A stretch of 64,000 bases of DNA from positions 5,084,001-5,148,000 of the forward strand of contig NZ_CP036426.1 of the NCBI RefSeq assembly GCF_007752535.1, written 5' to 3'. Within the stretch, counting starts at the first letter, position 1. Each line of letters opens with the position of its first letter. Origin of the DNA: Tautonia plasticadhaerens. Lineage in GTDB: Bacteria; Planctomycetota; Planctomycetia; Isosphaerales; Isosphaeraceae. Shown here one piece after another: positions 8,988 to 39,604 of the stretch. A program made the translations under genes and the position numbers. Under the pieces are notes generated by a model, which had not been told where the DNA came from, did not search any database, and was given only the letters and a program-made list of their open reading frames with translations.

Positions 8988-9117
8988 GGCGGGCGTTCCA
9001 CTTCGAGGTGGTTGGGGATGGCGGCCCGGCTCTTCGAGGCGTCGGGGACCCATCGGATGTTTCTACCATAATTCACGCGGGCCGGGGCGCCAATCGCGGC
9101 GGCGGGACGGGGGACCT

Positions 9118-24314: not shown

Positions 24315-26187
24315 CGGCCGGGATGGGATCGGGCAGGGGGATCGAGAGGGGCCCGGCCTCCCTGGCCAAGGTGGACGCCGGGACGCCCGGCGTCCCGGCG
24401 ATCGCCCGAGCCGGTTCGATCCGGGCGGGAGCCGGGCCGAAGCCCGACATCGCGGGGGCCTCGGGCAGCCCGAACTGTCGGGCGCAAAGGCGACGGTAGA
24501 GGCCGTTGGGCTCTGTGATCAGCCGGTCGTGGGTCCCCTTCTGGACGACCAGGCCGCCTTCCATGACGACGATCAGGTCGGCGTCGACGATCGTCGTCAG
24601 GCGGTGCGCGACGATGAACGCGGTGCGGCCACGCAGCAGGTTGGCCAACGCTTCCTGGATCGCAGACTCGCTAGCCGTGTCGAGCGAGCTGGTCGCCTCG
24701 TCGAGCACGACGATCGCCGGGTCGACGCAGAGCGCCCTGGCGATCGCCAGCCGCTGCCGCTGGCCCTGGCTCAGGGGGCGTCCCCCCTCGCCGACGAGCG
24801 TCTCGTAACCTTCGGGCAACTCCATGGCGAAGTCGTGGACCAGAGCGGCCCGGGCGGCGGCCTCAACCTGAGCGTCGGTCGCCCCAGGGTTCCCATAGCG
24901 GATGTTCTCGGCCAGAGAGGCCCGGAAGACCACCGGGTCCTGGAGCACCACGCCGATCTGACGGCGCAAGTCGTCGGTGGCGACGTGCCGGATGGGCGTG
25001 CCGTCGAGGCGGATCTCGCCCCAGGTCGGGTCGTAGAATCGCATCAACAGGTTCAAAAGCGTGCTTTTGCCGCAGCCGGTCGGTCCCACCAGGGCGACCT
25101 TCGTGCCGGGCTCGACGCGGAGCCTCACGTCCCAGACGACCGGCCGGCCCGGGGCGTAGCCGAAGCCGACGCGATCGAACTCGACCCGCCCGGAGACCCG
25201 CCCGAGAGCGATCGGCTCGGCCGGCTCGACGATGTCGGGCCGGAGGTCGAGGATCTCTCCCAGGCGATCGACGCTGGCGCCGGCCTGCTCGAAGACATAG
25301 GCCAGGTCCGCGAGCCGGCCGATCGGGCCGAAGAGCATCCCCGCGAGGGTCGAGGCGGCCACCACGCCGCCGGGCGTCATCCGGCCGTGCAGCACCTCGA
25401 ACGCCCCCGCGGCGAAGACCGACGCCGTGCCCAGGGCGCTGATGGCCCCGCTGAGGTTGGCGAACGCGGCCCCGAGGCGCGCCTCCCGGACTCGGGGCCC
25501 ATGGGCGTCGCCGAGCATGGTGGCGAAGTCCTCCTCCTCGGCCTGCTCCCGGGCGTGGACCTTGATCACCTGCACGCCGTCGATCCGCTCCTTCAGGTGT
25601 CCGAAGATCCGGTCCATCTTCGATCGGATCGCGGTGCTGTTCGCTCGGATCCTCGGGAGGAACGCGCGGTAGGCCAGCAGGTACAACGGCACGAATGTCA
25701 GGGCCACCAGGGCCAGCCAACCGTTCTGCCAGAGCAGGACGGCGCCGATGGCGGCGGTCGTGCCCAGGTCGGTGAGGACCGTCACGGTCTGGCCTGAGAT
25801 GAAGCCCTGGATCGCGCCGACGTCGTCCATCATCCGAGAGATGATCGCCCCGGTCGGGGTGCGGTCATAGTACGTCAGGCCGAGCCGCTGGAGCCGCTCG
25901 TAGATGCCATGCCGGAGGTCCCGGACGACGTCCAGCCCGACCCGGCCGACGATCAGCGCGTTCGCCAGGTTCAACCCCGCCTGGGCCGCAAAGACGAGGA
26001 GCAGGGCTCCCGAGAGGAGGGGCAGCTCCCGCCAGTCTTCCCCGATCACGACCCGATCGACCAGCTCCCTGACCAGGAGCGGCACGGCCAGGGTCAGCAG
26101 GCAGGCCGTCACGGTCAGGCCGAGCGCGAGGGCCACACGCACCCGATACGGGGCAAGCCAGCAGCGGATTCGTCTCGCAGTGCTCAC
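24301..26187 (-). CDS. ABC exporter half-transporter, permease fused to ATPase, with variant signature motif
   Basis: 628 residues from the GTG at 26187. Six membrane helices span roughly 15-300, followed by the ATPase domain with Walker A GPTGCGKST (about 366), Walker B with catalytic Glu (IVVLDEATSSLD) and the signature LSQGQRQRLAIARAL, where the usual LSGGQ reads LSQGQ. In a dimer with the next gene product, this variant signature faces the altered Walker B of the partner, giving one weak site and one full site. About 50 C-terminal residues after the domain are Pro/Ala-rich. It is the first gene of the pair. Confidence 0.92.
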   Translation of the reverse strand: MSTARRIRCWLAPYRVRVALALGLTVTACLLTLAVPLLVRELVDRVVIGEDWRELPLLSGALLLVFAAQAGLNLANALIVGRVGLDVVRDLRHGIYERLQRLGLTYYDRTPTGAIISRMMDDVGAIQGFISGQTVTVLTDLGTTAAIGAVLLWQNGWLALVALTFVPLYLLAYRAFLPRIRANSTAIRSKMDRIFGHLKERIDGVQVIKVHAREQAEEEDFATMLGDAHGPRVREARLGAAFANLSGAISALGTASVFAAGAFEVLHGRMTPGGVVAASTLAGMLFGPIGRLADLAYVFEQAGASVDRLGEILDLRPDIVEPAEPIALGRVSGRVEFDRVGFGYAPGRPVVWDVRLRVEPGTKVALVGPTGCGKSTLLNLLMRFYDPTWGEIRLDGTPIRHVATDDLRRQIGVVLQDPVVFRASLAENIRYGNPGATDAQVEAAARAALVHDFAMELPEGYETLVGEGGRPLSQGQRQRLAIARALCVDPAIVVLDEATSSLDTASESAIQEALANLLRGRTAFIVAHRLTTIVDADLIVVMEGGLVVQKGTHDRLITEPNGLYRRLCARQFGLPEAPAMSGFGPAPARIEPARAIAGTPGVPASTLAREAGPLSIPLPDPIPADVRA

Positions 26188-26555: not shown

Positions 26556-27413
26556 TCAGCGTCCGAGCGCGAGCAGGGCCCGCTCGACCTCGGGGGGGAT
26601 CGGGCGGCGGCGGCGGATGACCCAGGGGAGCCCCGAGAGGGCGTCTCGCAACGCGGCTCGAGCATCCGGATCCCGGTAGCCGGCCGCGGCGAGGCGGGCG
26701 GTGCCATGCATCGCGGACCAGAGCGGCCGTCGGAGCCAGGCCGACCAGAGCGCGTTGCGGTACTGGACGCGGCGTCGCCCCGGCCTCGGGCCGGAGGCCA
26801 CCGGGTGGTGGTGCGCGACGACGTCGTCGCAATAGCAGAGGCCCCACCCGGATGCCGCCAGGTCGATCGCGAGCAGCTCCTCCTCACCACCGACCCCGAA
26901 GCGGGCCTCGAAGCCGCCGACCTCCAGGAACGCGGACCGGCGGACGACCGCGCCGCATGCGAGGAATCCGAGGACCGGAGAGCCCGGCAGGCCTTCGTGG
27001 CGCGGCAACGGGCTGGAGGCCATTTCCAGGCAGGTCGGGTCGATCCGGCCCGATGGCTCGACGAGCACGCGGGCCGCGACCAGGGCGAGCGTCGGGTGGT
27101 CGTCGAGGCGATCGGCCGCGATCCTCAACGCTCCCGACGCCCACCAGGAGTCGTCGTCGCTGAATGCGACGTAGGCCGAGTCGGCCTCCCGCACGCCCAC
27201 GTTGCGGGCCGCGGCGCCGAGATTCCTCCCGAGCGCGACCAGCCGGACCTCGGGGTACGCGTCCCGAACGAGATCGGCCGTCCCGTCCCGGGAGCCGTTG
27301 TCGACCAGGATGACGCGAGGAGACTCCGGGAGGGCCCGCAGCCAGTCGAGCGTCGCCCCGAGCCGTCCCCGCCGATCACGGGTCGCGATCACGACCGAGA
27401 TCCGAGGATCCAT
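26556..27413 (-). CDS. GT2-family glycosyltransferase
   Basis: 285 residues starting at ATG 27413 (MDPRISVVIATRDRRGRLGA); a longer in-frame start at 27482 adds a basic stretch that does not belong to the fold. GT-A motifs are VILVDNGSRDGTADLV, GRNLGAAARNVGV and AFSDDDSWWASGAL with the DDD metal site. A VGGEEELLAIDLAASGW segment is characteristic of rhamnosyl- and similar transferases of this subgroup. It is transcribed in the same direction as the ABC exporters and may serve the same product. Confidence 0.87.
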   Translation of the reverse strand: MDPRISVVIATRDRRGRLGATLDWLRALPESPRVILVDNGSRDGTADLVRDAYPEVRLVALGRNLGAAARNVGVREADSAYVAFSDDDSWWASGALRIAADRLDDHPTLALVAARVLVEPSGRIDPTCLEMASSPLPRHEGLPGSPVLGFLACGAVVRRSAFLEVGGFEARFGVGGEEELLAIDLAASGWGLCYCDDVVAHHHPVASGPRPGRRRVQYRNALWSAWLRRPLWSAMHGTARLAAAGYRDPDARAALRDALSGLPWVIRRRRPIPPEVERALLALGR

Positions 27414-27783
27414 CTCCGCTGGTCTCTCTCGTGCCACTGCGCCTCGATGCCGATTCCTTCGCACCCATTCTGCAGGGTGCATGCCAAACGCCGACGACCA
27501 TGCCGATTCTTCCGAGAATCATGCGCCGTCGTTCGGCGGGATGGCCCTGGATTCGGGGCGAGGCGACTTCGGATGTCTTCTCTGCCATGCAGGAATGAGA
27601 ATTGCTGGCAAGACGCCCCGTTCCCCGGGTCATCCGGGACGCCTGGCCCTGGCCCGCCATGGCGGGCCAGAGCGTGTGGAGGTCCACCGGCAACTAAAAA
27701 ATTCGGCAATGTTTTCACATTCTCAATTAAAAGAGTATTCGTGTGATTTCGGCGTCGCGGGCCGCCCGGCCACGAACGGCCTC
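27414..27783. promoter_or_regulatory. Divergent intergenic region with AT-rich core and a perfect palindrome
   Basis: This gap separates the leftward GT2 gene from the rightward heptose operon, so promoters for both are expected. Bases about 27690-27745 are strongly AT-rich (AACTAAAAAATTCGGCAATG and TTCTCAATTAAAAGAGTATT). At 27649-27670 there is a perfect 22-base palindrome with arms CTGGCCCGCCA, suited to bind a dimeric regulator or to form a hairpin. No -35/-10 pair can be fixed with confidence. Confidence 0.45.
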
Positions 27784-28926
27784 ATGGCGTCGATCCCCGG
27801 GCCATCCTCTCCAGGTCCACGGGTCGACGGGCCTCGGGACCATTCAGGATTGGAGTGCCGCCTGCTCGGGCCGTCGTCGGGGCCGGGGAGGCCGCGGCGC
27901 GTGGCCATCTTCCGGGCGCTTCAGCTGGGCGACATGCTCTGCGCCGTCCCGGCCTTGCGGGCGTTCCGGGCGGCGCTGCCCGATGCCGAGCTGGTCCTGA
28001 TCGGCCTCCCCTGGGCGAAATCCTTCGCCTCCCGGTTCCGCCGGTATCTCGACGGTTTCCGCGAGTTCCCCGGCTTCCCGGGGCTGCCCGAGCGTGCCCC
28101 GGAGGTCGGCCGCATCCCCGGGTTCTTCTCCGAGTTGCAGGCCGAGCGGTTCGACCTGGCGGTCCAGATGCACGGCAGCGGGCTGCTGACCAACCCCCTG
28201 GTGGAGCGGATCGGCGCCGGACGGTGCGCGGGTTTCTTCCGGCTTGGCGGACGCTGCCCCGACCCGGAGACGTTCATGCCCTGGCCGGAGGAGGGACTGG
28301 AGGTCCGCCGCCTGCTCCGGCTCCCGGAATATCTCGGGGCGCCTCCCCGGGGCGAGGAGCTGGAATTCCCCCTGGACGAGTCTGATGCGCGGTCGCTCCG
28401 CGAGGCGCTCGGGGAAGAGGAACTGGGGCCGATGCGCTATTGCTGCATTCATGCGGGAGCGAGCGTCCCCGGGCGCTGCTGGCCGCCCGGGCGCTTCGCC
28501 GCCGTGGCCGAAACCCTGTCTCGGTGCGGCCTGAAGGTTGTGCTGACCGGGACCGCGTCCGAGGCCGATCGAGCCCGGGCGGTGGCCCGCGGGTTGCGGG
28601 GGCCGTTTCTCGACATGACCGGGCGGACCGGCCTCGGCGCGCTGGGGGCCCTGCTGAGCGGGGCCAGGCTGCTGATCTGCAACGACACGGGCGTGTCCCA
28701 CGTCGCGGCGGCCCTCCGCGTGCCGAGCGTCGTCCTCTCGACCGGGGACAACCCGAGCCGCTGGGCCCCCGCCGACTCCCGGCTCCACCGCGTCCTCTGC
28801 CCCGCACCTGACGTGCATCCGGGCGCAGTGATCGCCGAGGCCGAGGATCTCCTGCGGCTCGGGCGGGTCGGCCCCGGCCGCCGAAGTCCCGGGACGCTCC
28901 AACCATTCACGATCGCAGGCGAATGA
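27784..28926 (+). CDS. GT9-family glycosyltransferase (heptosyltransferase-like)
   Basis: 380 residues from ATG 27784; the conserved fold only begins at RRVAIFRALQLGDMLCAVPA, so a GTG at 27901 is a possible alternative start. GT9 hallmarks are the N-terminal LGD loop, the donor-side HAGASVPGRCWPPGRFAAVA, and ARLLICNDTGVSHVAAALRV, which is the ADP-heptose-binding end motif. These enzymes move heptose from an ADP donor onto lipid A core or other glycans. It opens a + strand operon whose later genes make ADP-heptose. The stop overlaps the next start (ATGA). Confidence 0.9.
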   Translation: MASIPGPSSPGPRVDGPRDHSGLECRLLGPSSGPGRPRRVAIFRALQLGDMLCAVPALRAFRAALPDAELVLIGLPWAKSFASRFRRYLDGFREFPGFPGLPERAPEVGRIPGFFSELQAERFDLAVQMHGSGLLTNPLVERIGAGRCAGFFRLGGRCPDPETFMPWPEEGLEVRRLLRLPEYLGAPPRGEELEFPLDESDARSLREALGEEELGPMRYCCIHAGASVPGRCWPPGRFAAVAETLSRCGLKVVLTGTASEADRARAVARGLRGPFLDMTGRTGLGALGALLSGARLLICNDTGVSHVAAALRVPSVVLSTGDNPSRWAPADSRLHRVLCPAPDVHPGAVIAEAEDLLRLGRVGPGRRSPGTLQPFTIAGE

Positions 28927-29942
28927 GGATCGACATGAAGCCACTCCGGGTCCTGACGTGGCACGTCCACGGCAACTACCTGCTCTACCTGTCGCGGGCG
29001 GATGTCGAGTTCTATCTGCCGGTCCGGCCCGGCGGGCGAGACGGCTACGGGGGGCGAGGGCCGACCTTTCCGTTTCCCGACCGCGTCCGAGACGTGCCGG
29101 CCGAGGCGGTCCGCGAGCTGGAGTTCGACTGCGTGCTGTACCAGTCGCGCCGGAACTTCGAGGTCGATCGTCACGAGATCCTGAGCGATCGCCAGATGCG
29201 ACTGCCGCGGATTTACCTGGAGCACGACCCTCCCCGGGCGCACCCGACCGACACGAGACACTGGTCGGACGACCCCAACGGCCTGCTCGTCCACGTCACG
29301 CCCTTCAACGACCTGATGTGGGACGACGGCCGGACGCCGAGCCGGGTCATCGAGCACGGAGTCTTCGTGCCCGACGGGGTCCGGTACACCGGGGAGATCG
29401 ACCGCGGGATCGTTGTGGTCAACCACCTCCTGCGTCGCGGTCGGCTGCTGGGGGCCGACGTCTTCTCCCGGGCCCGAGCCCACATCCCGCTCGACCTGGT
29501 CGGGATGGACGCCGAGTCGCTGGGCGGGCTGGGCGAGGTGCGGCCGCCGGACCTGGCGGCCTTCGAGGCCCGATACCGCTTCTTCTTCAACCCGATCCGG
29601 TGGACCAGCCTCGGCCTGGCGATCATCGAGGCGATGATGATCGGCCTGCCGATCGTCGGCCTGGCGACCACCGAGCTGGCATCGGTCGTCGAGAACGGCG
29701 TCTCGGGCCACGTCGACACCGATCTCGATCGCCTGATCGTGCAGATGCGACGCCTCCTCGACGACCCGGACGAGGCCCGAAGGCTCGGCGAGGGGGCCCG
29801 GCGGACCGCCCGGGAGCGGTTCGGCATCGATCGCTTCGCACGGGACTGGGAGCGGGCCTTCGCCGACGTCACCGGGAGGCCGGCATCGGGCCGGGACCGG
29901 CATCGGCCCGCGTCGGCGCTCGCCTCGGGAGGTGTGCGATGA
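28923..29942 (+). CDS. GT4-like glycosyltransferase
   Basis: 339 residues, ATG 28923 within an ATGA overlap; ATG 28935 is an alternative. The N-terminus RVLTWHVHGNYLLYLSRADV is unusual for GT-B enzymes. The C-terminal half is clearer: RFFFNPIRWTSLGLAIIEAM and GLPIVGLATTELASVVENGV, where Glu in IIEAM is the donor-site residue. This is the short GT4 type found next to sugar-nucleotide genes in several phyla. The last 25 residues are low-complexity. It is coupled to genes on both sides. Confidence 0.8.
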   Translation: MRIDMKPLRVLTWHVHGNYLLYLSRADVEFYLPVRPGGRDGYGGRGPTFPFPDRVRDVPAEAVRELEFDCVLYQSRRNFEVDRHEILSDRQMRLPRIYLEHDPPRAHPTDTRHWSDDPNGLLVHVTPFNDLMWDDGRTPSRVIEHGVFVPDGVRYTGEIDRGIVVVNHLLRRGRLLGADVFSRARAHIPLDLVGMDAESLGGLGEVRPPDLAAFEARYRFFFNPIRWTSLGLAIIEAMMIGLPIVGLATTELASVVENGVSGHVDTDLDRLIVQMRRLLDDPDEARRLGEGARRTARERFGIDRFARDWERAFADVTGRPASGRDRHRPASALASGGVR

Positions 29943-31261
29943 GGCGGATCGCCCTGATCAGCGACCACGCGTCTCCCCTGGCGACGCTCGGCGGCGTCGA
30001 TGGCGGCGGCCAGAACGTCTACGTCGGCCAGCTTGCGCGGCACCTTGTCGCGCGAGGCGACCGCGTGGACATCTTCACCCGGCGCGACGCTGGCAACTTG
30101 CCCGACATCGTCCCCTGGGGCGAGGGGGGCCGCGTGATCCACGTCCCCGCCGGGCCGGCCGGCCGGGTGCGGAAGGAGGAGCTTCTGCCCTACATGGGCG
30201 AGTTCATCGAATTCGTCCTCCGGCACTGCCGGCGCCGTCCGTACGATCTCGTCCACGCGAACTTCTTCCTGTCGGCGCTGGTCGCGGCCGAGGTGAAGCG
30301 CGTGGTCGAGACGCCGTTCGTCGTCACCTTCCACGCGCTGGGCCGGGTCCGTCGGTTGCACCAGGGTGGGGCGGACGCCTTCCCCGAAGAGCGGCTCGCG
30401 ATCGAGGACCGCGCCGTCCGCGAGGCCGACCGCATTATCGCCGAGTGCCCCCAGGACGAGGACGACCTGCACATCCTCTACGGTGCCGACCCGGCCCGGA
30501 TCCGGACGGTCCCCTGCGGCTTCGACCCCGACGAGTTCCGGCCGCTCTCCAAGCCGCTGGCCCGGGCGATGCTCGGCCTCGACGGCCACGGGCCGATCCT
30601 GCTGCAGCTCGGCCGCATGGTCCCGCGCAAGGGGGTGGATAACGTCATCCGGGGCCTGGCCCTCCTCCGGAACGGCTCCGGGATCCCCGCCCGACTGCTG
30701 ATCGTCGGCGGGGAGTCGAGCACCCCCGACCCGCGGCTCACGCCCGAGATCGGCCGGCTGATGGCGATCGCCGAACGGGAGGGGGTGGCCGACGCCGTGA
30801 CCTTCGTCGGGAGCCGCGGCCGAGACGCCCTGAACGCCTACTACAGCGCCGCCGATGTCTTCATCACGACCCCGTGGTACGAGCCCTTCGGCATCACGCC
30901 GCTGGAGGCGATGGCCTGCGGCACGCCGGTCGTCGGCTCGGCGGTCGGGGGGATCAGGTCGACGGTCCAGGACGGCCGGACCGGGTACCTCGTCCCGCCG
31001 GAGGACCCGCCGGCGCTGGCCGCCCGGCTCGCCGACCTGCTGGGCGACCCGGAGCGGCTCCGGGCCTTCGGCCGCCGAGCCGTGCACGTCGCCCGATCCC
31101 GCTACACCTGGGCTCGGGTCGCCGAGTCCGTCTCCGCCGTTTACGAGGAGTTGATTCCCTCGCACTACTCGGGCTGCGCCCGAGCATGGGCGAACCGATC
31201 GACGTCGTCCGCCCGGCCGGCGTTCCGACCCGAGACGCCCGGGATCCGCCCGTCTTCCTGA
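29939..31261 (+). CDS. GT4-family glycosyltransferase
   Basis: 440 residues; the start at 29939 is set by the ATGA overlap and by RRIALISDHASPLATLGGVD, a typical beginning with the GG loop. The acceptor half carries GGGQNVYVGQLARHLVARGD. The donor half carries LLQLGRMVPRKGVDNVIRGL and WYEPFGITPLEAMACGTPVV, the E-x7-E motif of retaining GT4 enzymes close to sucrose-synthase-like and MshA-like proteins. A Ser/Arg/Pro-rich tail of about 40 residues follows. It is the third gene of the operon. Confidence 0.9.
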   Translation: MRRIALISDHASPLATLGGVDGGGQNVYVGQLARHLVARGDRVDIFTRRDAGNLPDIVPWGEGGRVIHVPAGPAGRVRKEELLPYMGEFIEFVLRHCRRRPYDLVHANFFLSALVAAEVKRVVETPFVVTFHALGRVRRLHQGGADAFPEERLAIEDRAVREADRIIAECPQDEDDLHILYGADPARIRTVPCGFDPDEFRPLSKPLARAMLGLDGHGPILLQLGRMVPRKGVDNVIRGLALLRNGSGIPARLLIVGGESSTPDPRLTPEIGRLMAIAEREGVADAVTFVGSRGRDALNAYYSAADVFITTPWYEPFGITPLEAMACGTPVVGSAVGGIRSTVQDGRTGYLVPPEDPPALAARLADLLGDPERLRAFGRRAVHVARSRYTWARVAESVSAVYEELIPSHYSGCARAWANRSTSSARPAFRPETPGIRPSS

Positions 31262-31280
31262 CCCCCTTGAGGAGCTTCCC

Positions 31281-32006
31281 GTGAGCAGTCTTGAGTCGAA
31301 GGTCGCAATGGTCACCGGCGGCGGCCAGGGCCTCGGCGAGGCGATCTGCCGGTCGCTCGCCCGGGCCGGTGCGACCGTCGTGTCGGCCGACGTCCGCGAG
31401 GAACGTGCCCGGGCCGTCGCCGACGCGATCCGGGCCGAGGGCGGCCAGGCCTCGGCGGTCCGGCTCGACGTCGCGTCGGAGGAGCAGGCGACCGAGGCGA
31501 TCCGCCGGATCGTCGCCGAGCGCGGCCGCCTCGACGTGCTCGTCAACAACGCCGGAGTCGACCTAACGGTCTCCGTCGAGGATCTGTCGGTCGCCGACTG
31601 GGGCCGCATCCTCGGGGTGAACCTGAGCGGCCCGTTCATCATGTCCAAGCATGCGATGAAGGAGATGAGGTCCCAGGGCGGCGGGCATATCGTCAACATC
31701 GTCTCCACCGCGGCCAAGCGGGCCTGGCCGAACGCGGCGGCCTACCACGCCAGCAAGTGGGGCCTGCTCGGGCTGAGCCATGCCCTGCACGCCGAGGCCC
31801 GGCCGCATGGCGTCAAGGTCACGGCCGTGGTGGCCGGCGGGATGCGGACGCCTTTCCTGCTCGACCGGTTCCCCGACCTCGACCCCGGGGTGCTCCAGGA
31901 CCCGGCCAACGTCGCCGAGACGGTCCGGTTCGTGCTGACCCAGCCCGACGAGACGGTCATCCCGGAAGTGATGGTCATCCCCATGCGAGAGACTTCCTGG
32001 CCATGA
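31281..32006 (+). CDS. Short-chain dehydrogenase/reductase (SDR)
   Basis: 241 residues from a GTG. Classical SDR: nucleotide loop TGGGQGLGEAICRSLARAGA, LVNNAGVDLTV, catalytic Ser in NIVSTAAKRAW and Tyr-Lys in AAYHASKWGLLG. The C-terminus is short, as in small SDRs. It lies directly upstream of gmhB with an ATGA overlap. It is not a heptose epimerase of the HldD type, which is larger and has an extended-SDR fold; a role in tailoring a sugar nucleotide or lipid carrier is inference. Confidence 0.88.
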   Translation: MSSLESKVAMVTGGGQGLGEAICRSLARAGATVVSADVREERARAVADAIRAEGGQASAVRLDVASEEQATEAIRRIVAERGRLDVLVNNAGVDLTVSVEDLSVADWGRILGVNLSGPFIMSKHAMKEMRSQGGGHIVNIVSTAAKRAWPNAAAYHASKWGLLGLSHALHAEARPHGVKVTAVVAGGMRTPFLLDRFPDLDPGVLQDPANVAETVRFVLTQPDETVIPEVMVIPMRETSWP

Positions 32007-32620
32007 TTCGACCCACTGCCCCGGGAGACCGGGCGGTCTTCCTCGACAAGGACGGGACCTTGATCGACGACGTCCCCTACAACGTCGACCCGGCGCTGAT
32101 CCGGCTGGCTGCGGGCGCGCCGGAGGGGCTGCGATCCCTGCACGAGGCCGGCTTCAGGCTGATCGTCGTCTCGAACCAGTCGGGCGTGGCTCGGGGGCTT
32201 TTCCCAGAGGGCGCGCTCGGGCCGGTCCGGGCCAGGGTCGAGGAACTGCTGGCCGAGGCCGGCGTGACGCTCTCCGGCTTCTCCTACTGCCCGCACCACC
32301 CCGGCGGATCGGTCCCCGGGTATGCCGAGCGGTGCGATTGCCGGAAGCCCCGGCCGGGCATGCTCCTGGAGGCGGCTCGGGCGATGGGGATCGACCTCGG
32401 GCGGTCCTGGCTCGTGGGAGACATCCTGGACGACGTCGAGGCCGGCCGCCTCGCCGGCTGCAGGACCGTCCTGATCGACAACGGCAACGAGACCGAATGG
32501 GACCTGACTCCCGGCCGACAGCCGCACCACCGGGCCGCCGACCTGTCCGAGGCCGCCCGGGTCATCCTCGGCGACGATCTCGGGCCAATACGCACCAGAC
32601 CTCCTGAGGACCTCCCATGA
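32003..32620 (+). CDS. gmhB: D-glycero-D-manno-heptose 1,7-bisphosphate 7-phosphatase
   Basis: 205 residues, start at ATG 32003 by the ATGA overlap. HAD motif I is AVFLDKDGTLIDD, motif II is in VVSNQSGVARG, and motif III/IV is in CRKPRPGM and WLVGDILDDVEAG. The zinc loop of GmhB is present as CPHHPGGSVPGYAERCDC (Cys-x-His then Cys-x-Cys). This protein removes the 7-phosphate of heptose 1,7-bisphosphate between the two HldE reactions. It overlaps hldE by four bases, so both are made together. Whether it prefers the alpha or beta anomer cannot be read from the sequence; pairing with HldE favours the beta (ADP) route. Confidence 0.92.
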   Translation: MIRPTAPGDRAVFLDKDGTLIDDVPYNVDPALIRLAAGAPEGLRSLHEAGFRLIVVSNQSGVARGLFPEGALGPVRARVEELLAEAGVTLSGFSYCPHHPGGSVPGYAERCDCRKPRPGMLLEAARAMGIDLGRSWLVGDILDDVEAGRLAGCRTVLIDNGNETEWDLTPGRQPHHRAADLSEAARVILGDDLGPIRTRPPEDLP

Positions 32621-34164
32621 GCCTCCCCCTCTCCGAACTCATCGACAGGTTCCGCGGGCTCGAGATCCTCGTTATCGGCGAGGCGATGCTCGACTCCTAC
32701 CTCGAGGGGACGACCGGGCGCCTCTGCCGGGAGGCCCCCGTGCCGATCGTCGCCCTGGACGGCCGCCACGACGCCCCCGGAGGCGCGGCAAACACCGCCG
32801 TCAACTCCGCCGCCCTCGGGGCCCGGGTCCGGTTCCTCTCGGTCGTCGGCGACGACTGCGAGGGGGACCTGCTGCTGCGGTCGCTCGCCGGGCTCGGGAT
32901 CGACACGGCCGATGTCCTCGTCGAAGCGGGCCGTCGAACGCTGGCCAAGCACCGGGTCGTCGCCGCGTCGCAACTGCTCGTCCGGTTCGACCAAGGGGAC
33001 ACTGGCCCGCTCGACTCGGAGACCGAGCGGGCGCTGATCGATCGGCTGATCGACCTGTTCCCGAGCTGTGATGCCGTCATCATCTCGGACTACGGCTATG
33101 GCGTCCTCGCCCCGGCCGTTGTCGAGACCCTGACGGCGCTCCAGCGGCGATCGCCCCGCGTCCTGGTGGTGGACTCGAAGAATCTCGCCTCCTATCGCGA
33201 GGTCGGCCCGACCGCGGTCAAGCCGAACTACGAGGAGGCCGTTCAGCTGCTCGGGGGGTGGCGAGGCGGCGGTAGTTCCCGGGTCGAGGCGATCTCCGAT
33301 CGGGGAGAATCCCTCCTCGACCAGACCGGCGCCCGGATGGCCGCGGTGACGCTTGACGCCGAGGGGGCAATCGTGATCGATCGCGGCCGGCCCCCTTACC
33401 GGACCTACGCGAAGCCGGCGAGGCACTCGCAGGCCGCCGGGGCGGGGGACACGTTCCTCGCCGCCCTCGGCCTCGCCCTGGCCGCCGGGGCGGAGACCCC
33501 CGCCGCCGCCGACCTGGCCTCGGCCGCCGGCGCAGTCGTGGTGGCGAGGGAGGGCACGGTCTCCTGCTCCGCACGGGATCTCCGCGACCAGCTCGCCGTC
33601 GAGGCCAAGCCGGCGACCGATGCCTCGGCGCTGGCGGCCCGTCTCGACGAACATCGGCGCCTCGGGCGCCGGATCGTCTTCACCAACGGCTGCTTCGACA
33701 TCCTGCACCGCGGCCACGTCTCCTACCTGAGCCGGGCCAAGGCGCTGGGGGACGTGCTGGTCGTCGGCGTCAACTCCGACGACAGCATCCGAAGGCTCAA
33801 GGGGCCCAGCCGGCCGATCAACGCGCTGGAGGACCGTGTGCAACTGCTCGCTGCCCTGAGCTGCGTCGACCACATCGTCCCCTTCGGCGAGGACACGCCG
33901 GGCGACCTCATCCTGAGGGTCCGGCCCGACGTCTTCGTCAAGGGAGGCGACTACACCCGGGAACGGCTCCCCGAGGCCGCGATCGTGGAGGGATACGGGG
34001 GAGAGGTCCAGATCCTGCCCTTCGTCGCCGACCATTCCACGACCGACATCATCGAGCGCATCCGGGCGGTGTATGGCCTGGCCGGCAAGGGCGTGCACTC
34101 CCCCCGCTTCGACGAGTTCGCCCCGGCCGACGGGGTCGCCGACGTCCGGGGAGGGTTCGCATGA
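32617..34164 (+). CDS. hldE: Bifunctional heptose 7-phosphate kinase / heptose 1-phosphate adenylyltransferase
   Basis: 515 residues, slightly longer than the usual 475. The N-terminal PfkB-type kinase (about 1-330) has the opening VIGEAMLDSYLEGTTGRLC, the substrate loop GGAANTAVNSAALGA and the anion hole AAGAGDTFLAAL. The C-terminal nucleotidyltransferase begins near residue 354 with VFTNGCFDILHRGHVSYLSR, carrying the HxGH-type motif, and continues with GVNSDDSIRRLKGPSRPIN. The two halves phosphorylate C1 and then load ADP. An extra 25-residue tail follows the catalytic part. It is coupled to gmhB upstream and to a GT9 gene downstream. Confidence 0.95.
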   Translation: MSLPLSELIDRFRGLEILVIGEAMLDSYLEGTTGRLCREAPVPIVALDGRHDAPGGAANTAVNSAALGARVRFLSVVGDDCEGDLLLRSLAGLGIDTADVLVEAGRRTLAKHRVVAASQLLVRFDQGDTGPLDSETERALIDRLIDLFPSCDAVIISDYGYGVLAPAVVETLTALQRRSPRVLVVDSKNLASYREVGPTAVKPNYEEAVQLLGGWRGGGSSRVEAISDRGESLLDQTGARMAAVTLDAEGAIVIDRGRPPYRTYAKPARHSQAAGAGDTFLAALGLALAAGAETPAAADLASAAGAVVVAREGTVSCSARDLRDQLAVEAKPATDASALAARLDEHRRLGRRIVFTNGCFDILHRGHVSYLSRAKALGDVLVVGVNSDDSIRRLKGPSRPINALEDRVQLLAALSCVDHIVPFGEDTPGDLILRVRPDVFVKGGDYTRERLPEAAIVEGYGGEVQILPFVADHSTTDIIERIRAVYGLAGKGVHSPRFDEFAPADGVADVRGGFA

Positions 34165-35303
34165 GCCGGGAGGCCGTCTGGGAGCAGGCCAGGCACGTGC
34201 TGTGCGTCCGGCTCGACGCCCTCGGCGACGTGCTGATGACGACCCCCGCGCTGCGGGCCCTCAGGGAATCAGCCCCGGGGCGGCGGATCACTCTTTTGAC
34301 CTCTCCCTCGGGGGCGGCGCCCGGCCCGATGCTGCCCGAGGTCGACGAGTACATGATTTATGAGTCTCCCTGGATGAAGTCCTCGCCGCCGGGCGCGGAC
34401 GGCCGGGCCGATCGGGAGATGATCGAACGGCTTCGCCTTCGGCGGTTCGACGCGGCCGTGATCTTCACCGTCTTCAGCCAGAACCCGCTGCCGGCAGCCC
34501 TGATGTGCCACCTGGCCGACATCCCACTCCGGCTGGCCTACTGCCGGGAGAACCCCTACCACCTGCTCACCGACCGGGTCGCCGAACCGGAGCCCGAGCA
34601 GTTCGTCCGCCACGAGGTCCGGCGCCAGCTCGACCTCGTCGCGTCGGTCGGCTCGAGGCCGTCCCATGAACGGCTCTCGCTCCGGGTGCCCGACGACGCC
34701 CGGTGCAGGGTTGCCGGGCTCCTGGCTCGCCTAGGGTTCGGCGACGGCGGGCCCTGGATCGTCATCCACCCAGGGGCCACGGCCCCCTCGCGTCGTTACC
34801 CTCCGGAGGGTTTCGCCGAGGCGGCCCGGAGCCTGGCGCGGGACCACGGCCTTCGGGTCGTCTTCACCGGGAGCGGCCCTGAGGGGGAACTGGTCAAGTC
34901 GATCCGATCGGCGATGGGAGTGCCCTCCGGCTCGCTCGTCGGCGAGCTGGGCCTGGCGGAGCTGGCCGCCCTGATCGAGCGGGCCCCGCTGCTGATAGCC
35001 AACAACACCGGGCCGGTCCATGTTGCCGCGGCGGTCGGGACACCCGTGGTGGACCTGTATGCCCTGACGAACCTCCAGCACACCCCCTGGGCCGTGCCAA
35101 GCAGGGTGCTCAACCGAGCGGTCCCGTGCGGGCCCTGCTACAAGAGCATCTGCCCCGAGGGGCACCACGATTGCCTTCGGCTCGTCTCGCCCGGCGAGGT
35201 GGTCCGGGCCGCGCTCGAACTGCTGGGAGAGCCCGCCGCTCGGCGGCCGCCGGCCCCTCGCCACGATCTTCGGAGGTTCGCCCATGTACACGCTCGGGAT
35301 TAA
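34161..35303 (+). CDS. GT9-family heptosyltransferase
   Basis: 380 residues. Clear GT9 motifs: VLCVRLDALGDVLMTTPALR at the N-terminus, WIVIHPGATAPSRRYPPEGF and VVFTGSGPEGELVKSI in the donor domain, then LLIANNTGPVHVAAAVGTPV with the ADP-heptose contact residues. Its position right after hldE strongly suggests that it uses ADP-heptose. Start by ATGA overlap with hldE; its 3' end overlaps the next gene by 20 bases. Confidence 0.93.
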   Translation: MSREAVWEQARHVLCVRLDALGDVLMTTPALRALRESAPGRRITLLTSPSGAAPGPMLPEVDEYMIYESPWMKSSPPGADGRADREMIERLRLRRFDAAVIFTVFSQNPLPAALMCHLADIPLRLAYCRENPYHLLTDRVAEPEPEQFVRHEVRRQLDLVASVGSRPSHERLSLRVPDDARCRVAGLLARLGFGDGGPWIVIHPGATAPSRRYPPEGFAEAARSLARDHGLRVVFTGSGPEGELVKSIRSAMGVPSGSLVGELGLAELAALIERAPLLIANNTGPVHVAAAVGTPVVDLYALTNLQHTPWAVPSRVLNRAVPCGPCYKSICPEGHHDCLRLVSPGEVVRAALELLGEPAARRPPAPRHDLRRFAHVHARD

Positions 35304-37017
35304 TGCCGCCTACCACGACCCGGCCGCATGCCTCGTCGACGATGGCCGGGTGGTCGCCGCGGCGGAGGACGAGCGCTTCACCCACGTCAAGCACGGCAAG
35401 CGGCCCGTCCCTTTCTCGACCTGGGAGCTGCCCTTCCACGCGATCGAATATTGCCTGAGAGAGGCGGGGATCACCCTGGCCGACGTCGACCACGTCGCCT
35501 ACTCGTACGACCCGTACTTGCTGCTGGGCCGCCGGCGAAACGACGCGACGATCTCCCTGCCCATGGAGCCGAGCGCCCACCCCACCCCCGAGGAGTGGGA
35601 GGCGGCCTGGGATCCCCTGTTCCTCTCGTCGATCGTCAACGCCCCCCGGCAGCTACTCGACGGCGTCCCACACCACTTGAAGGACCGATTCCGGGACGCC
35701 CGCTCCCGAGGGCGGTTCCGCTGGCACTTCGTGGCGCACCACCTGGCGCACGCGGCCAGTGCCTTCCACGCCTCCCCGTTCGATCGCGCGGCCGTGCTCA
35801 CCCTCGACGGCCGGGGAGAGCGGGCCACGACCGGCTACGCCGTCGGCCGGGGGGCCGAGCTGGAGTGGCTCGGGCAGGTTCACATGCCCCACTCGCTCGG
35901 CATCCTCTACGAGGAGTTGACCGAGTACCTCGGCTTCCTGCGCTCGTCGGACGAATACAAGGTGATGGCCCTGGCCTCCTTCGGCTCCCCCGCGTTCGCC
36001 CCGGAATTCCGGGAGATGATCAGGCTCGGCGAAGACGGCCAGTACACGATCGAGCCTCCCCGGCTGGCCGAGCGATTCGGCCCGGTCCGACAACGCGGCG
36101 GCCCCCTGGAGCAGCGGCATTACGACCTCGCGCACTCGCTCCAGGTCGTGCTCGAGGACACGGTGATCGAGCTGGCCCGATGGCTGCACGGGGCCTCGGG
36201 CTGCGACGACCTGTGCATGGCCGGAGGGGTCGCCCTGAACTGCGTGATGAACGCCCGGCTCCGGGACCGGGGGCCGTTCCGGCACATCTGGATCCAGCCG
36301 GCGGCCGGAGACGCCGGCACGGCCCTCGGCGCCGCGCTCTGGGTTGACGTCCGAGAGCGGCCGGGGAGTGACCGCCGATGGGTGATGGAACACGCCTTCC
36401 TCGGCCCGAGCTTCGAGGACGACGAGATCGAGGGCTTCCTCCGCTGGTCGAAGCTCCCGTATCGTCGCCTGGGCGACGTCCCCGGGGAGGTCGCCGACAT
36501 CCTGGAGCGGGATCGCGTCATCGGCTGGTACCAGGGGCGCATGGAATTCGGCCCCCGGGCGCTCGGGGCGAGGTCGATCCTCGCCTCGCCGATCCACGCG
36601 GAGATGCAGGCGAAGCTCAACGAGATCAAGGACCGCGAGGATTTCCGGCCCGTGGCCCCGGTCGTGCTGGAGGAGGAGGCGAGCGCCTGGTTCGCCGGCG
36701 CCGGCGTCTCGCCCTTCATGCTCTTCGTCCACGACGTCCGGCCCGAGAAGGCCGACCGGATCCCGGCGGTCCGCCACGTCGACGGCACGGCCCGAATCCA
36801 GACGATCAACCAATCGCAGAATCCCATCTATTACGACCTATTGAAGGCATTCCAGGCCAGGACCGGGGTCCCCGTGCTGATCAACACCTCGTTCAACACC
36901 AGGGGAGAGCCGATCGTCTGCTCGCCCCGCGACGCGGTGGAGAGCTTCTGGACCTCGCCCCTGGACGCCCTGGTGATCGGCCCGTTCCTGCTCGAGAAGC
37001 CCGAGGCCCGGCAATGA
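35284..37017 (+). CDS. O-carbamoyltransferase (NodU/TobZ/CmcH family)
   Basis: 577 residues, normal for the family. The N-terminal ATPase-like domain begins YTLGINAAYHDPAACLVDDG and holds the metal His residues in HHLAHAASAFHASPF and LTLDGRGERATTGYA. The C-terminal half is the YrdC-like carbamoyl-adenylate domain with GRMEFGPRALGARSILASPI and TSFNTRGEPIVCSPRDAV. The enzyme makes carbamoyl-AMP from carbamoyl phosphate and ATP and passes the carbamoyl group to a sugar hydroxyl. Next to two heptosyltransferases, carbamoylation of a heptose or neighbouring sugar is the natural hypothesis. A GGAGG motif precedes the ATG at 35284, within the preceding gene. Confidence 0.93.
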   Translation: MYTLGINAAYHDPAACLVDDGRVVAAAEDERFTHVKHGKRPVPFSTWELPFHAIEYCLREAGITLADVDHVAYSYDPYLLLGRRRNDATISLPMEPSAHPTPEEWEAAWDPLFLSSIVNAPRQLLDGVPHHLKDRFRDARSRGRFRWHFVAHHLAHAASAFHASPFDRAAVLTLDGRGERATTGYAVGRGAELEWLGQVHMPHSLGILYEELTEYLGFLRSSDEYKVMALASFGSPAFAPEFREMIRLGEDGQYTIEPPRLAERFGPVRQRGGPLEQRHYDLAHSLQVVLEDTVIELARWLHGASGCDDLCMAGGVALNCVMNARLRDRGPFRHIWIQPAAGDAGTALGAALWVDVRERPGSDRRWVMEHAFLGPSFEDDEIEGFLRWSKLPYRRLGDVPGEVADILERDRVIGWYQGRMEFGPRALGARSILASPIHAEMQAKLNEIKDREDFRPVAPVVLEEEASAWFAGAGVSPFMLFVHDVRPEKADRIPAVRHVDGTARIQTINQSQNPIYYDLLKAFQARTGVPVLINTSFNTRGEPIVCSPRDAVESFWTSPLDALVIGPFLLEKPEARQ

Positions 37018-37391
37018 CCTTCCGAGAGACGTTGGACGCCCACCTCAACGCCATCCGCCGTCGGGATGCCGAGGCCCTGATGGCCACCCTGCCGGCGCCC
37101 GGTGCGTCGATCGTCCTGATCACGGCCGAGGGGTCGCTGGTCCGATCGGTGGAGGAGTTCGAGGGGATGCACCGGGGCTGGTTCTCCTCGACGACGTGGA
37201 CGCTGGGGGCCGAGCCCGTCGAGCTGTTCGAGTCGGCCGATCTCGGAGTCGCCGTGCTGAGGCTGGACTACCGAGACGAGCCCCCCGAGGGTCCACTCGT
37301 CCGGCAGTCCAGCTACCTGACGCTCGTCTTCGCCCGGCGAGACGGCCGCTGGGCGATGGTCCAGGACCAGAACACGCCAATCCGGCCGTGA
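37014..37391 (+). CDS. NTF2-like (SnoaL/DUF4440-type) small protein
   Basis: 125 residues from ATG 37014, overlapping the preceding stop (ATGA). The layout of an N-terminal helix pair (RETLDAHLNAIRRRDAEALM), then strands ending SSYLTLVFARRDGRWAMVQD and QNTP, fits the NTF2-like cone fold. Members can be enzymes or small-molecule-binding accessory proteins, so no reaction is assigned. Position between the carbamoyltransferase and a GT2 gene makes a role in the same pathway likely. Confidence 0.75.
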   Translation: MTFRETLDAHLNAIRRRDAEALMATLPAPGASIVLITAEGSLVRSVEEFEGMHRGWFSSTTWTLGAEPVELFESADLGVAVLRLDYRDEPPEGPLVRQSSYLTLVFARRDGRWAMVQDQNTPIRP

Positions 37392-37412
37392 TCTCCCGGG
37401 GGGAATCCGCCC

Positions 37413-38375
37413 ATGCTCGCCTCGGTCGTCGTCCCCACCTACCATCGGCCTGAGCTGCTCGGACGCTGCCTCGACGCGCTGGCGACCCAGGATCTCGACC
37501 CGAAGATCTTCGAGGTGCTCGTGGTCGACGACGCGGCGAGCCCGGAGACAAGGAGGCAGGTCGAGGCCGTCGCCGCCGCGGCCCGACCGGCGATCCGCTA
37601 CCTCGCCGTGACCGGCCGACACGGGCCGGCCGCGGCCCGCAACGCCGGCTGGCGGGCGGCCCGCGGCGAGGTCCTTGCGTTCACTGACGACGACTGCATC
37701 CCCGTCCGGGGCTGGCTGGCGGCGGGCCTCTCAGCCATCGAGGGGGGTGCCTCGGCGGCCTGCGGGCGGGTCGTCATGCCGCTCCCCGACGTGCCGACGG
37801 ACTACCAGCGCAACGCCGCCGGGCTGGCCTCAGCGGAGTTCGTCACGGCCAACTGCTTCTGCCGTCGAGACGCCCTGGAGTCCGTCGGCGGCCTTGACGA
37901 GCGGTTCTCCGCCGCCTGGCGAGAGGACAGCGACCTCCATTTCGCCCTGCTCCGGGCGGGCCTCTCCATCGTTCGAGCCCCGGATGCAATCGTCGTCCAC
38001 CCGGTCCGCCCCGCGCCCTGGGGCATCAGCCTCCGCCAGCAGCGAAAGACCCTGTTTGATGCGCTGCTCTATCGGAAATTCCCCGATCTGTACCGGCGAA
38101 GGATTCGGCCGGTCCCGCCCTGGGACTATTACGCCATCGCGGCCTCGATCGGCCTCGGGGCGGTTGCCGCCGGCCTCGGCCACCCTCGCGTGGCCCTCGC
38201 CGCCGCGGCCCTCTGGGCTCTGCTAACCGGCCGGTTCTGCGCCCGACGCCTGCGAGGGAATTCGCTCGAGTTGCGGCACGTCGCCGAGATGATCATCACC
38301 TCGGCCCTGATCCCCCCGCTGTCGGTCTTCTGGCGGCTCTACGGGTCTTGGAAGTTCCGCGTTCTGTTCCTCTGA
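37413..38375 (+). CDS. GT2-family glycosyltransferase with C-terminal membrane segments
   Basis: 320 residues. GT-A motifs: SVVVPTYHRPELLGRCLDAL, VLVVDDAASPETRR, GPAAARNAGWRAARGEVLAF and FTDDDCIPVRGWL (metal site). FCRRDALESVGGLDERFSAA and WREDSDLHFAL are the acceptor-side motifs. From about residue 235, YYAIAASIGLGAVAAGLGHP and the following hydrophobic stretch suggest two membrane-inserted segments, unusual for soluble GT2 enzymes but common where the acceptor is lipid-linked. It starts 21 bases after the NTF2-like gene. Confidence 0.88.
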   Translation: MLASVVVPTYHRPELLGRCLDALATQDLDPKIFEVLVVDDAASPETRRQVEAVAAAARPAIRYLAVTGRHGPAAARNAGWRAARGEVLAFTDDDCIPVRGWLAAGLSAIEGGASAACGRVVMPLPDVPTDYQRNAAGLASAEFVTANCFCRRDALESVGGLDERFSAAWREDSDLHFALLRAGLSIVRAPDAIVVHPVRPAPWGISLRQQRKTLFDALLYRKFPDLYRRRIRPVPPWDYYAIAASIGLGAVAAGLGHPRVALAAAALWALLTGRFCARRLRGNSLELRHVAEMIITSALIPPLSVFWRLYGSWKFRVLFL

Positions 38376-38400
38376 CGGCCTAACAAAGGGGCACCCCCCG

Positions 38401-39399
38401 ATGCGACTCCCGAGGTTCTTGCAGGTCGAACCGGTTGGACAGTGCAACCTGCGCTGCCGGATGTGTCCGATCCAGTTCCGACGGGATGGGCCCCCGCACG
38501 GGCCGCCGGCCTTCATGGACTTCGACCTCTTCGCCCGGCTGCTCGACCAGTTCGCCGACCTCGAAGAGCTCCAGCTCCAGGGGCTTGGCGAGCCGATGAT
38601 GCACCCGAGGTTCTTCGACATGATCTCCCTGGCATCGGGGCGAGGGATCAAGGTCAGCACGAACACGAATCTGACGCTCCTGACCGCGAGCAGGGCCGAG
38701 CGGTGCGTGACCAGCGGCCTAGCCGAGCTGCACGCCTCGATCGACGGGGCGACCGCCGAGACCTACGAGCGCATCCGCGTCCGAGCCCGCTTCGACCGCA
38801 TCGTCCGGAACCTTGCGGGGCTCGTCAAAGCGAGGGAGCGCCTCGCAAGCGCCACGCCCCGCATCCGGATGGTCGTCGTGGCGATGCGGCAGAACCTGCC
38901 CGAGTTCCCCGACCTCGTCCGGCTGGCGCACCGGCTGGGGATCGATTCGGTCTTCGTCCAGCACCTCTGCCATGACTTCGGCGAGTCGAGCCTGCCGCCC
39001 CACTACCGCCCGATGCGCGACTTCGTCGAGGGCGAGACGCTGGTGAATGAAGACCAGGACCGCGTTGCCCGCTACTTCGGCGAGGCGCGGGACCTTGCCC
39101 GAGAACTGGAGGTGGACCTCCGCCTGCCCGCGACCCAGCCGAAACCCCATCCCCCCGGCACCCCAGGCCCGAAGCGGTGCGACTGGCCGTGGCGAGGGGC
39201 TTACGTCAGCTATCAGGGGCTCTCAATGCCCTGCTGCATGGTCTCGACCCCCGACCGGATCAACCTGGGAGACATGGCCGCAGAAGGCGCCGGGAAGGTC
39301 TGGAGTGGCGAGCCGTACCAGTCCTTCCGCGAGGCGTTGTCGTCCGAGTCCCCGCCCGAAGTCTGCCGCTCCTGCGCGATCTATTCTGGCACCTTCTGA
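38401..39399 (+). CDS. Radical SAM/SPASM-domain enzyme
   Basis: 332 residues. The 4Fe-4S ligating motif CNLRCRMC (residues 15-22) gives the C-x3-C-x2-C pattern; ELQLQGLGEPMMHPRFFDMI is the GGE-like SAM-contact strand, and STNTNLTLLTASRAERCVTS continues the barrel. The C-terminal cysteines in KRCDWPWRGAYVSYQGLSMP, MPCCMVST and EVCRSCAIYSGTF form the SPASM auxiliary-cluster pattern. Members modify peptides, sugars or aminoglycosides. It closes the operon, 25 bases after the GT2 gene; in this setting dehydrogenation or epimerisation of a sugar is plausible but not shown. Confidence 0.88.
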   Translation: MRLPRFLQVEPVGQCNLRCRMCPIQFRRDGPPHGPPAFMDFDLFARLLDQFADLEELQLQGLGEPMMHPRFFDMISLASGRGIKVSTNTNLTLLTASRAERCVTSGLAELHASIDGATAETYERIRVRARFDRIVRNLAGLVKARERLASATPRIRMVVVAMRQNLPEFPDLVRLAHRLGIDSVFVQHLCHDFGESSLPPHYRPMRDFVEGETLVNEDQDRVARYFGEARDLARELEVDLRLPATQPKPHPPGTPGPKRCDWPWRGAYVSYQGLSMPCCMVSTPDRINLGDMAAEGAGKVWSGEPYQSFREALSSESPPEVCRSCAIYSGTF

Positions 39400-39604
39400 A
39401 TCCGACCGTTGCAGCGTGCGCGAGCCGACAACCTCGGTCAACTAGAGGGTTGATCTCGTGTCTCGCGACCATCGTTCGAGGACGACCCCTCCATGACCTA
39501 ACCACCCGAAGCCCGGCCGCTCCATGGCGCCTGCGCCATCACCTACTTCATCGCGAACAAGGGTACAAAATTTCTACAATAAAAATTATTAGTTTAATGC
39601 GAGT

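Follow-up and report, generated by a model that had tools for sequence, protein, structure and literature searches.

A Tautonia plasticadhaerens operon as the planctomycete form of a widespread cassette for a putative carbamoylated heptose oligosaccharide

Introduction

What would a bacterium make with an operon that unites heptose activation, heptosyltransferase-type glycosyltransferases, an O-carbamoyltransferase and a radical SAM enzyme? This question is raised by a 64,000-nt stretch of the Tautonia plasticadhaerens genome (NZ_CP036426.1, 5,084,001-5,148,000; hereafter the window, whose positions are used below), in which eleven open frames, all on the + strand, span 27784-39399. The original prediction, made from the DNA itself, took these frames as one translational unit for a carbamoylated, radical-modified heptose glycan. 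The analysis described here leans, with moderate confidence, towards a cassette that has spread horizontally and of which the operon is the planctomycete version. Its product would be an O-carbamoylated heptose oligosaccharide, independent of lipopolysaccharide (LPS), which MsbA-like ABC proteins encoded divergently would export. The earlier reading is partly supported by the analysis: the combination of genes is real, and its radical SAM part is lineage-bound.

Results

Six of the gene junctions are 4-base ATGA overlaps (28923, 29939, 32003, 32617, 34161, and 37014), and the remaining four consist of one 20-base overlap (35284-35303) and gaps of 19, 21, and 25 bases; re-checking of the coordinates reproduced this layout as it had been claimed. 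The GC content is 0.710 for the operon vs 0.702 for the window. In gene order, domain searches assigned the frames to a heptosyltransferase-type glycosyltransferase (GT9a, 27784..28926; PF01075, 2e-27), a group 1 glycosyltransferase (GT4a, 28923..29942; PF13692/PF00534), an MshA or sucrose-phosphate-synthase-like glycosyltransferase (GT4b, 29939..31261; PF00534, 3.5e-38), a classical short-chain dehydrogenase (SDR, 31281..32006; PF00106, 2.3e-56), a GmhB-like HAD-IIIA phosphatase (HAD, 32003..32620), the heptose-7-phosphate kinase and heptose-1-phosphate adenylyltransferase HldE (32617..34164; NF008454, 1.5e-115), a heptosyltransferase II-type glycosyltransferase (GT9b, 34161..35303; PF01075, 2.6e-28), a NodU/TobZ-type O-carbamoyltransferase (CAR, 35284..37017; PF16861, 240.9 bits, and PF02543, 208.9 bits), a SnoaL-like small protein (37014..37391; PF13474), a GT2 glycosyltransferase (GT2, 37413..38375; PF00535), and a radical SAM/SPASM enzyme (38401..39399; PF04055 and PF13186).

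A scan of genome contigs found 174 CAR relatives, and the 80 loci kept, with 59-81% CAR identity, span Planctomycetota, Bacteroidota, Pseudomonadota, Verrucomicrobiota, Chloroflexota, and Thermomicrobiota (loci and genomes are cited by L and G numbers). Tblastn was used alongside the codon-based gene caller, which misses some genes, such as GT2 in L025. Core genes were counted in the 65 loci where CAR has 8 kb or more on either side, the 15 short-flanked loci being dropped. The full core of CAR, GT2, GT9a, GT9b, HAD, GT4a, and GT4b was complete in 53 of these 65, i.e., in 45/56 Bacteroidota, 4/4 Pseudomonadota, 2/2 Planctomycetota, 1/1 Verrucomicrobiota, and 1/2 Chloroflexota/Thermomicrobiota loci. 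That SDR, HldE, SnoaL, and the radical SAM gene come and go among lineages, and that at least one core gene is missing in 12/65 loci, would be expected if unrelated sugar genes had become neighbors without a joint product. Chance clustering is nevertheless excluded because loci from five phyla contain the seven-gene core in full, and the ATGA coupling and the identical presence of CAR and the radical SAM gene in 45 genomes (see below) also make the lack of a joint product hardly conceivable. The stability of the core over five phyla, at 59-81% CAR identity, probably reflects a specific, useful product.

By a crude rule GT2, the usual neighbor of CAR, adjoins it in 66 of 78 loci, two of the 80 being dropped for this count; the 12 misses comprise seven loci with GT2 directly after CAR, four with GT9a in between, and L081, which is without GT2. 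Pairwise distances of nine partner genes track those of CAR (r 0.76-0.93, a descriptive figure from related rows). A CAR tree built with a quick method on 49 rows, after 43 of 92 rows, all Bacteroidota, had been dropped, is ordered mostly by phylum, with the window among the Isosphaeraceae and the planctomycete family f46 apart from other planctomycetes. A search in phages gave remote CAR relatives, at most 36% identical among the five matches listed of 144 records.

Plasmid-borne CAR genes at 67-70% identity occur in Caballeronia, Paraburkholderia, Cupriavidus, and Burkholderia (at least 9 records). Neighbors annotated in at least one of five plasmid cassettes include Mn-catalase, hemerythrin, BON-domain protein, phasin, and Zn-alcohol dehydrogenase, as well as PIG-L deacetylase, UDP-glucuronate decarboxylase, and ABC genes. 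Several cassettes (L121-L125 and Bacteroidota loci) lie amid stress and sensing genes of these kinds (Mn-catalase, hemerythrin, BON, phasin, Zn-alcohol dehydrogenase), together with CheB/CheR and PAS kinases.

Within the host family, 45 Isosphaeraceae genomes were searched with limits of E<=1e-170 for CAR and E<=1e-60 for the radical SAM enzyme. A CAR ortholog is present in eight, i.e., the window's own genome and seven others at 80-81% identity, and a radical SAM ortholog (at least 74%) in the same eight (Fisher's p 4.6e-9, kinship uncorrected), so that no genome of the family has one gene without the other. GT4b was detected in seven of the 45 genomes, the missing carrier being an 83% complete assembly of 1190 contigs. 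The exact gene set, whose conservation across planctomycetes had been suggested as a check, is rare: among the mapped loci all eleven gene types occur only in the window and in L126, where the SnoaL gene, the only match to the window's SnoaL protein among called genes of other loci, is placed behind the radical SAM gene. Smaller gene sets that include the radical SAM gene are found in L128, L004/L129, L071/L131, and L006/L132, and L002/L127 is a 3-kb contig that is uninformative on gene order. In G428, CAR stands alone on contig L130, and GT9a, GT4a, GT4b, HAD, GT9b, GT2, and the radical SAM gene are together on contig L134, closed up without CAR, which is displaced from the operon yet retained. 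The refuting case named with the original prediction does not occur in the family, and in G428 the rest of the cassette is kept together with the radical SAM gene.

Beyond the family, CAR relatives at E<=1e-100 occur in 140 of a sample of 392 planctomycete genomes; CAR identity is at least 68% in the own genome and four f46 genomes, and at most 52% elsewhere among the matches listed. The f46 loci hold SDR, HAD, GT9b, CAR, and GT2; no radical SAM gene was seen in the 20 kb read, and two f46 genomes searched contained no relative of it at E<=1e-25. In Pirellulales the gene is present in L003 and L005 and missing from the metagenome-assembled genome (MAG) locus L007. Among 25 carrier genomes, radical SAM orthologs of at least 58% identity were detected in 12, and no match at E<=1e-25 in eight; matches of only 33-36% occur in four Bacteroidota carriers, and an unlinked relative of 48% in G410 (Caldimonas). 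By the score limits used, Bacteroidota loci contain HldE in 12/56, SDR in 0/56, and the radical SAM gene in 0/56, and the latter is also lacking in the four Burkholderiales loci with good flanks, in six plasmid loci, and in the single Verrucomicrobiota locus. Because the Bacteroidota, Burkholderiales, Verrucomicrobiota, and f46 loci are without it, the radical SAM gene is a lineage add-on to the cassette; its membership of the set, assumed by the original prediction, is borne out in the host family and holds for only some lineages outside it.

The presence of LpxC was used to evaluate whether the cassette is confined to LPS producers. LpxC was found in 18 of 22 cassette genomes, that of the window included, and not found in four, all MAGs: G396 (Pirellulales), G397 (Sphaerobacter sp.), G398 (Chloroflexi), and G399 (Thermomicrobiales). 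GmhA, HAD, HldE, and GT9 genes occur together in the LpxC-less G397, G398, and G399, and in G398 a single row of genes on a 210-kb contig unites this set with GT4a, GT4b, SDR, CAR, GT2, and the radical SAM gene. CAR orthologs (72-77%) are present in 10 of the 47 genomes of the class of G398, in which LpxC was looked for in G398 alone, and in G488 CAR is located on a contig of several million bases; binning error is disfavored by these two observations.

An LPS core was the first reading of the locus, in which the cassette would decorate or extend the inner core in the manner of WapO and the core genes of Pseudomonas. The relationship of the GT9 enzymes to LPS heptosyltransferases, the LpxC genes of most carriers, and the carbamoylation of a core heptose by WapO, as stated in passages of PMC8005017, are in agreement with it. 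It is weakened by the three Chloroflexota/Thermomicrobiota carriers in which no LpxC was found, together with the CAR genes elsewhere in the class of G398, and by the lack of a heptose kinase or WaaA family among the matches of the window operon; an LPS core is considered unlikely. Given the carriers for which the LpxC search was negative, the product of the cassette is probably not part of the LPS core.

HldE was found, whole or as two halves, in 25/25 cassette genomes, the match in G410 containing two internal stops. Together with the core counts, this corroborates the placing of heptose supply, heptosyltransferase-type enzymes, and carbamoylation within a single unit. The T. plasticadhaerens genome has a second HldE at contig position 4988965, beside HldD at 4987912, outside the window and some 120 kb from the operon; because of this second copy next to HldD, the operon HldE looks dedicated to the cassette, and the retention of a separate HldE-HldD pair also speaks against an LPS role of the operon. 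HldD itself is not in the operon and exceeds the cut-off in 8/22 cassette genomes, leaving 14/22 below it. Because HldD is outside the operon and below the cut-off in most carriers, the sugar donor is predicted to be ADP-D-glycero-D-manno-heptose. GmhA-like matches occur in 22/22 cassette genomes, over the cut-off in five. In the class of G398, a full-length HldE frame is present in 7/10 CAR carriers vs 10/37 other genomes (one-sided p 0.017, with a 490-aa limit set post hoc).

CAR carries Carbam_trans_N and Carbam_trans_C domains with the HxxxH and the C-terminal GPRALG motif regions. Its residues 11-572 align to 7xb6, the top solved relative, which is labelled only Carbamoyltransferase; CAR aligns piecewise to the novobiocin enzyme and TobZ, and also to 9s2t, and GdmN is among its solved relatives. 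In a 92-row alignment, from which five duplicate loci (L127, L129-L132) were left out, 194 positions are at least 97% conserved, among which are H152, H156, D343, R419, and G423-R425, aligned to 3ver/TobZ, which presumably have metal and phosphate roles. The score against the NodU model is 194 bits with a cut-off of 1000. Because identity is at least 68% in five planctomycete genomes and at most 52% in the other matches listed, CAR is, by its sequence, a distinct subfamily within the NodU/TobZ type.

In the radical SAM enzyme the CxxxCxxC motif and Cys 190, 260, 278, and 279 are invariant in 13 aligned rows, and CNLRC(R/Q)MC is found in 12/12. Among the best 25 of 35 families the protein exceeds no curated cut-off (best TIGR04311, 133 of 400 bits) and fits no named equivalog, e.g., BlsE, DesII, or W cofactor maturase. 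Its best solved relative is cytosylglucuronate decarboxylase (44 bits), and this sugar-acting enzyme hints at a sugar substrate.

GT4b scores 279.6 of 462.5 bits against the MshA model, and its best solved relatives are Tll1590 (6kih) and 3c48, which are taken here to be a sucrose-phosphate synthase and MshA, respectively. A phosphorylated acceptor like that of MshA may be considered for GT4b: of four phosphate-binding residues of MshA, checked by hand, two fit (K79 and R152) and two do not (F109 and A133). The MshA and sucrose-phosphate synthase families act on soluble acceptors, and this similarity is among the arguments that the product could be a secreted small molecule, i.e., a natural product in the form of a heptose oligosaccharide, similar in kind to antibiotics that are carbamoylated or bear heptose. 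Moreover, the named solved relatives of CAR (the novobiocin enzyme, TobZ, and GdmN) are antibiotic carbamoyltransferases, exporter-type ABC genes are nearby, an MFS gene is present in 20 Bacteroidota loci, and no sugar polymerase or flippase family is encoded in the operon. However, the core is kept over phyla, unlike, in our judgement, most antibiotic clusters, no resistance gene was seen in the operon, and the number of glycosyltransferases, five to six, is high for the synthesis of a small metabolite, all of which makes such a natural product an unlikely outcome.

With respect to the remaining enzymes of the preferred heptose oligosaccharide route, the solved relatives listed for SDR are classical SDRs, and HldD, an extended SDR, is absent from its best 25 of 224 NCBIfam families. 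HAD scores 138.7 bits against NF006506 (cut-off 178), and GT9b 128.2 bits against TIGR02195 (cut-off 134.6). In HldE the adenylyltransferase domain is over the cut-off, and the kinase domain and the whole protein are below. The window's HldE has H in place of R before STT of the nucleotidyltransferase motif, a residue that varies among orthologs (R in 9/19 by a simple pattern); following passages of PMC11461863, this variation may mean use of CTP or UTP as well.

Upstream of the operon, and divergent from it on the - strand, lie a GT2 glycosyltransferase gene (upGT2, 26556..27482; PF00535) and two MsbA-like exporter halves, ABC1 (24301..26187) and ABC2 (22467..24314), both with PF00664 and PF00005. 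The intergenic stretch between upGT2 and GT9a (27483..27783) is presumed from the layout to hold the promoters; no sigma-70-type promoter site was found in 27400-39700, with 0.4 expected. In L071 upGT2 has a counterpart of 67% in the same divergent position, and ABC1-ABC2 (67% and 54% identity) are directly behind the radical SAM gene; L126 has a partial upGT2 match upstream of the operon. In ten Burkholderiales loci (L025, L044, L051, L060, L121-L125, and L133), relatives of upGT2 (43-48%) and of ABC1 occur in seven and eight, respectively, within the available stretch. The unit thus probably comprises 14 genes on two strands, the ABC part being less certain. In L051:614-3379 (Cupriavidus plantarum), near the cassette, an MsbA-like ABC exporter is fused C-terminally to a response-regulator receiver domain, an odd link between export and phosphorelay.

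Regarding its extent, the operon's frame ends were confirmed as originally predicted; the three divergent genes had been left out, and the start of GT9a is the one uncertain start codon. The gene caller places this start at GTG 27901, not at ATG 27784, GGGGAGG ends 9 bases ahead of the GTG, and in an alignment of GT9a with six relatives the start Met is the sole invariant column before residue 39 as numbered from 27784; translation may begin at 27901 instead.

The unit is bordered by an IS4-type transposase (20609-21940) and an ISKra4-type transposase (39648-40931). Because transposases are present on both sides, and a CAR ortholog in 0/3 congeners, the cassette was either acquired by the host or lost in its congeners. 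The ISKra4-type gene opens a run of transposases and serine recombinases (39648-61213; ISKra4, IS701, IS1182, ISAZ013, and IS110 types, and two large resolvases). On the other side, positions 1-20300 form a further glycan region with an ABC-2 permease and Wzt-like ATPase, a sulfotransferase, an HTTM protein, CTP_transf_3, an MptE-like protein, several glycosyltransferases, and a GmhA-like SIS protein.

Such glycan genes in the first 20 kb (the ABC-2/Wzt-like pair, sulfotransferase, and additional glycosyltransferases) and the number of glycosyltransferases in the operon would suit the production of a repeat-unit capsule or exopolysaccharide. This is nonetheless improbable, as no Wzx, Wzy, initiating phosphoglycosyltransferase, or polymer-export family is encoded by the 14 genes, and none is annotated inside five Burkholderiales plasmid cassettes, the gene tables of which are incomplete.

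Discussion

In the favored reading of an exported, LPS-independent oligosaccharide, HldE and the GmhB-like phosphatase would generate ADP-D-glycero-D-manno-heptose together with a GmhA-type isomerase whose gene lies elsewhere. From this donor, a short heptose-containing oligosaccharide would be assembled by the two GT9 enzymes, the two GT4 enzymes, and either one or two of the GT2 type. SDR and the radical SAM/SPASM enzyme may modify a sugar in some lineages, CAR, by its family, would add a carbamoyl group to the oligosaccharide as the putative acceptor, and the divergently encoded pair of MsbA-like ABC half-transporters could export the product.

Several observations weigh against this reading. 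HldE is expected in LPS producers anyway, which places most weight on the LpxC-less carriers; those of the Chloroflexota/Thermomicrobiota are MAGs, two of them with cassette contigs <30 kb, and in G397 and G399 the GmhA-HAD-HldE-GT9 set and the GT4 genes are on another contig than CAR, GT2, and the radical SAM gene. LpxC in 18/22 genomes would allow an LPS role in diderm carriers. The T. plasticadhaerens genome has no GmhA over the cut-off (best 107.7 vs 209.45 bits, the window gene at 8385-9053), 3/10 CAR carriers in the class of G398 are without a full-length HldE frame, and several operon proteins are under the NCBIfam cut-offs for named heptose enzymes. Besides the loci with an incomplete core, the 20 kb read of f46 showed no GT9a, GT4a, or GT4b. 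For export, ABC linkage is found in two of six family loci with visible flanks (the window and L071; not L126, L128, L129, and L134), and the identity of ABC1 to its Burkholderiales relatives (34-38%) is, in our judgement, about that of any two MsbA-like proteins. Finally, the product structure is deduced from gene families, and the acceptor and the order of sugars are guesses.

A broader proposal is put forward tentatively, as a possibility rather than an expectation. Diderms and bacteria without LPS, from five or more phyla, might all produce the same carbamoylated D-glycero-D-manno-heptose oligosaccharide by means of a cassette shared among them laterally. The compound would be secreted or belong to the envelope, outside LPS, and would have a link to survival under stress, in view of the Mn-catalase, hemerythrin, BON-domain, phasin, and Zn-alcohol dehydrogenase genes around some Burkholderiales cassettes; a radical SAM modification would be added in several planctomycetes, in Chloroflexota/Thermomicrobiota, and in a Methylococcaceae member. 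The cassette offers a clear case for asking how heptose serves outside LPS, and its culturable and, as far as known, harmless carriers (Mucilaginibacter, Dyadobacter, Chitinophaga, and Isosphaeraceae) enable the product to be sought by single-gene deletion.

Among the papers listed by searches of the open-access literature aimed at the cassette or its settings, none was recognized as describing it, most subscription journals being outside this scope. The low-oxygen-activated (lxa) locus of B. cenocepacia, considered as the Burkholderiales setting on basis of Zn-alcohol dehydrogenase, BON, and sigma-54 genes near these cassettes, was set aside: there is only resemblance, and 'carbamoyl' is absent from the main text of PMC6127331. 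Also discarded were PMC3742511, with a different gene set (its carbamoyltransferase has an MFS gene, a hypothetical gene, and a tannase for neighbors), and PMC3966863 (aspartate carbamoyltransferase) and PMC7326052 (ornithine carbamoyltransferase, and one table row with a novobiocin-type enzyme without context), neither of which was of help.

A close parallel in role is WapO (PA5005), a carbamoyltransferase that, according to passages of PMC8005017, is thought to modify HepII of the Pseudomonas LPS core, and the region of which also encodes putative Hep transferases and a PIG-L gene. CAR would likewise carbamoylate heptose, with heptosyltransferase-type genes alongside; the two are likened by description of role, not by sequence. 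Unlike WapO's LPS core locus with its heptose kinases, the cassette has LpxC-less carriers, an HldE gene in some lineages, and no HldD. A carbamoylated heptose, part of the glycan that the original prediction called an unusual surface structure, is in view of WapO known chemistry, and it looks like the LPS-independent setting that is new. ADP-heptose also feeds septacidin and spicamycin biosynthesis in Streptomyces and is used for heptosylated autotransporters, as described in parts of PMC10948575 and PMC11461863. The cassette would similarly direct ADP-heptose to a non-LPS product, with the difference that septacidin and spicamycin are nucleoside antibiotics, whereas the cassette encodes multiple glycosyltransferases, GT9 enzymes among them, together with CAR. 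Like TobZ, GdmN, and the decarbamoylnovobiocin carbamoyltransferase, CAR has both domains and the aligned motifs, whereas it scores far under the NodU cut-off and forms a distinct subfamily. The S-layer glycans of the monoderm Aneurinibacillus contain D-glycero-D-manno-heptose that is supplied through a GDP-heptose route, from which the cassette would differ in using, by its HldE family, the ADP route.

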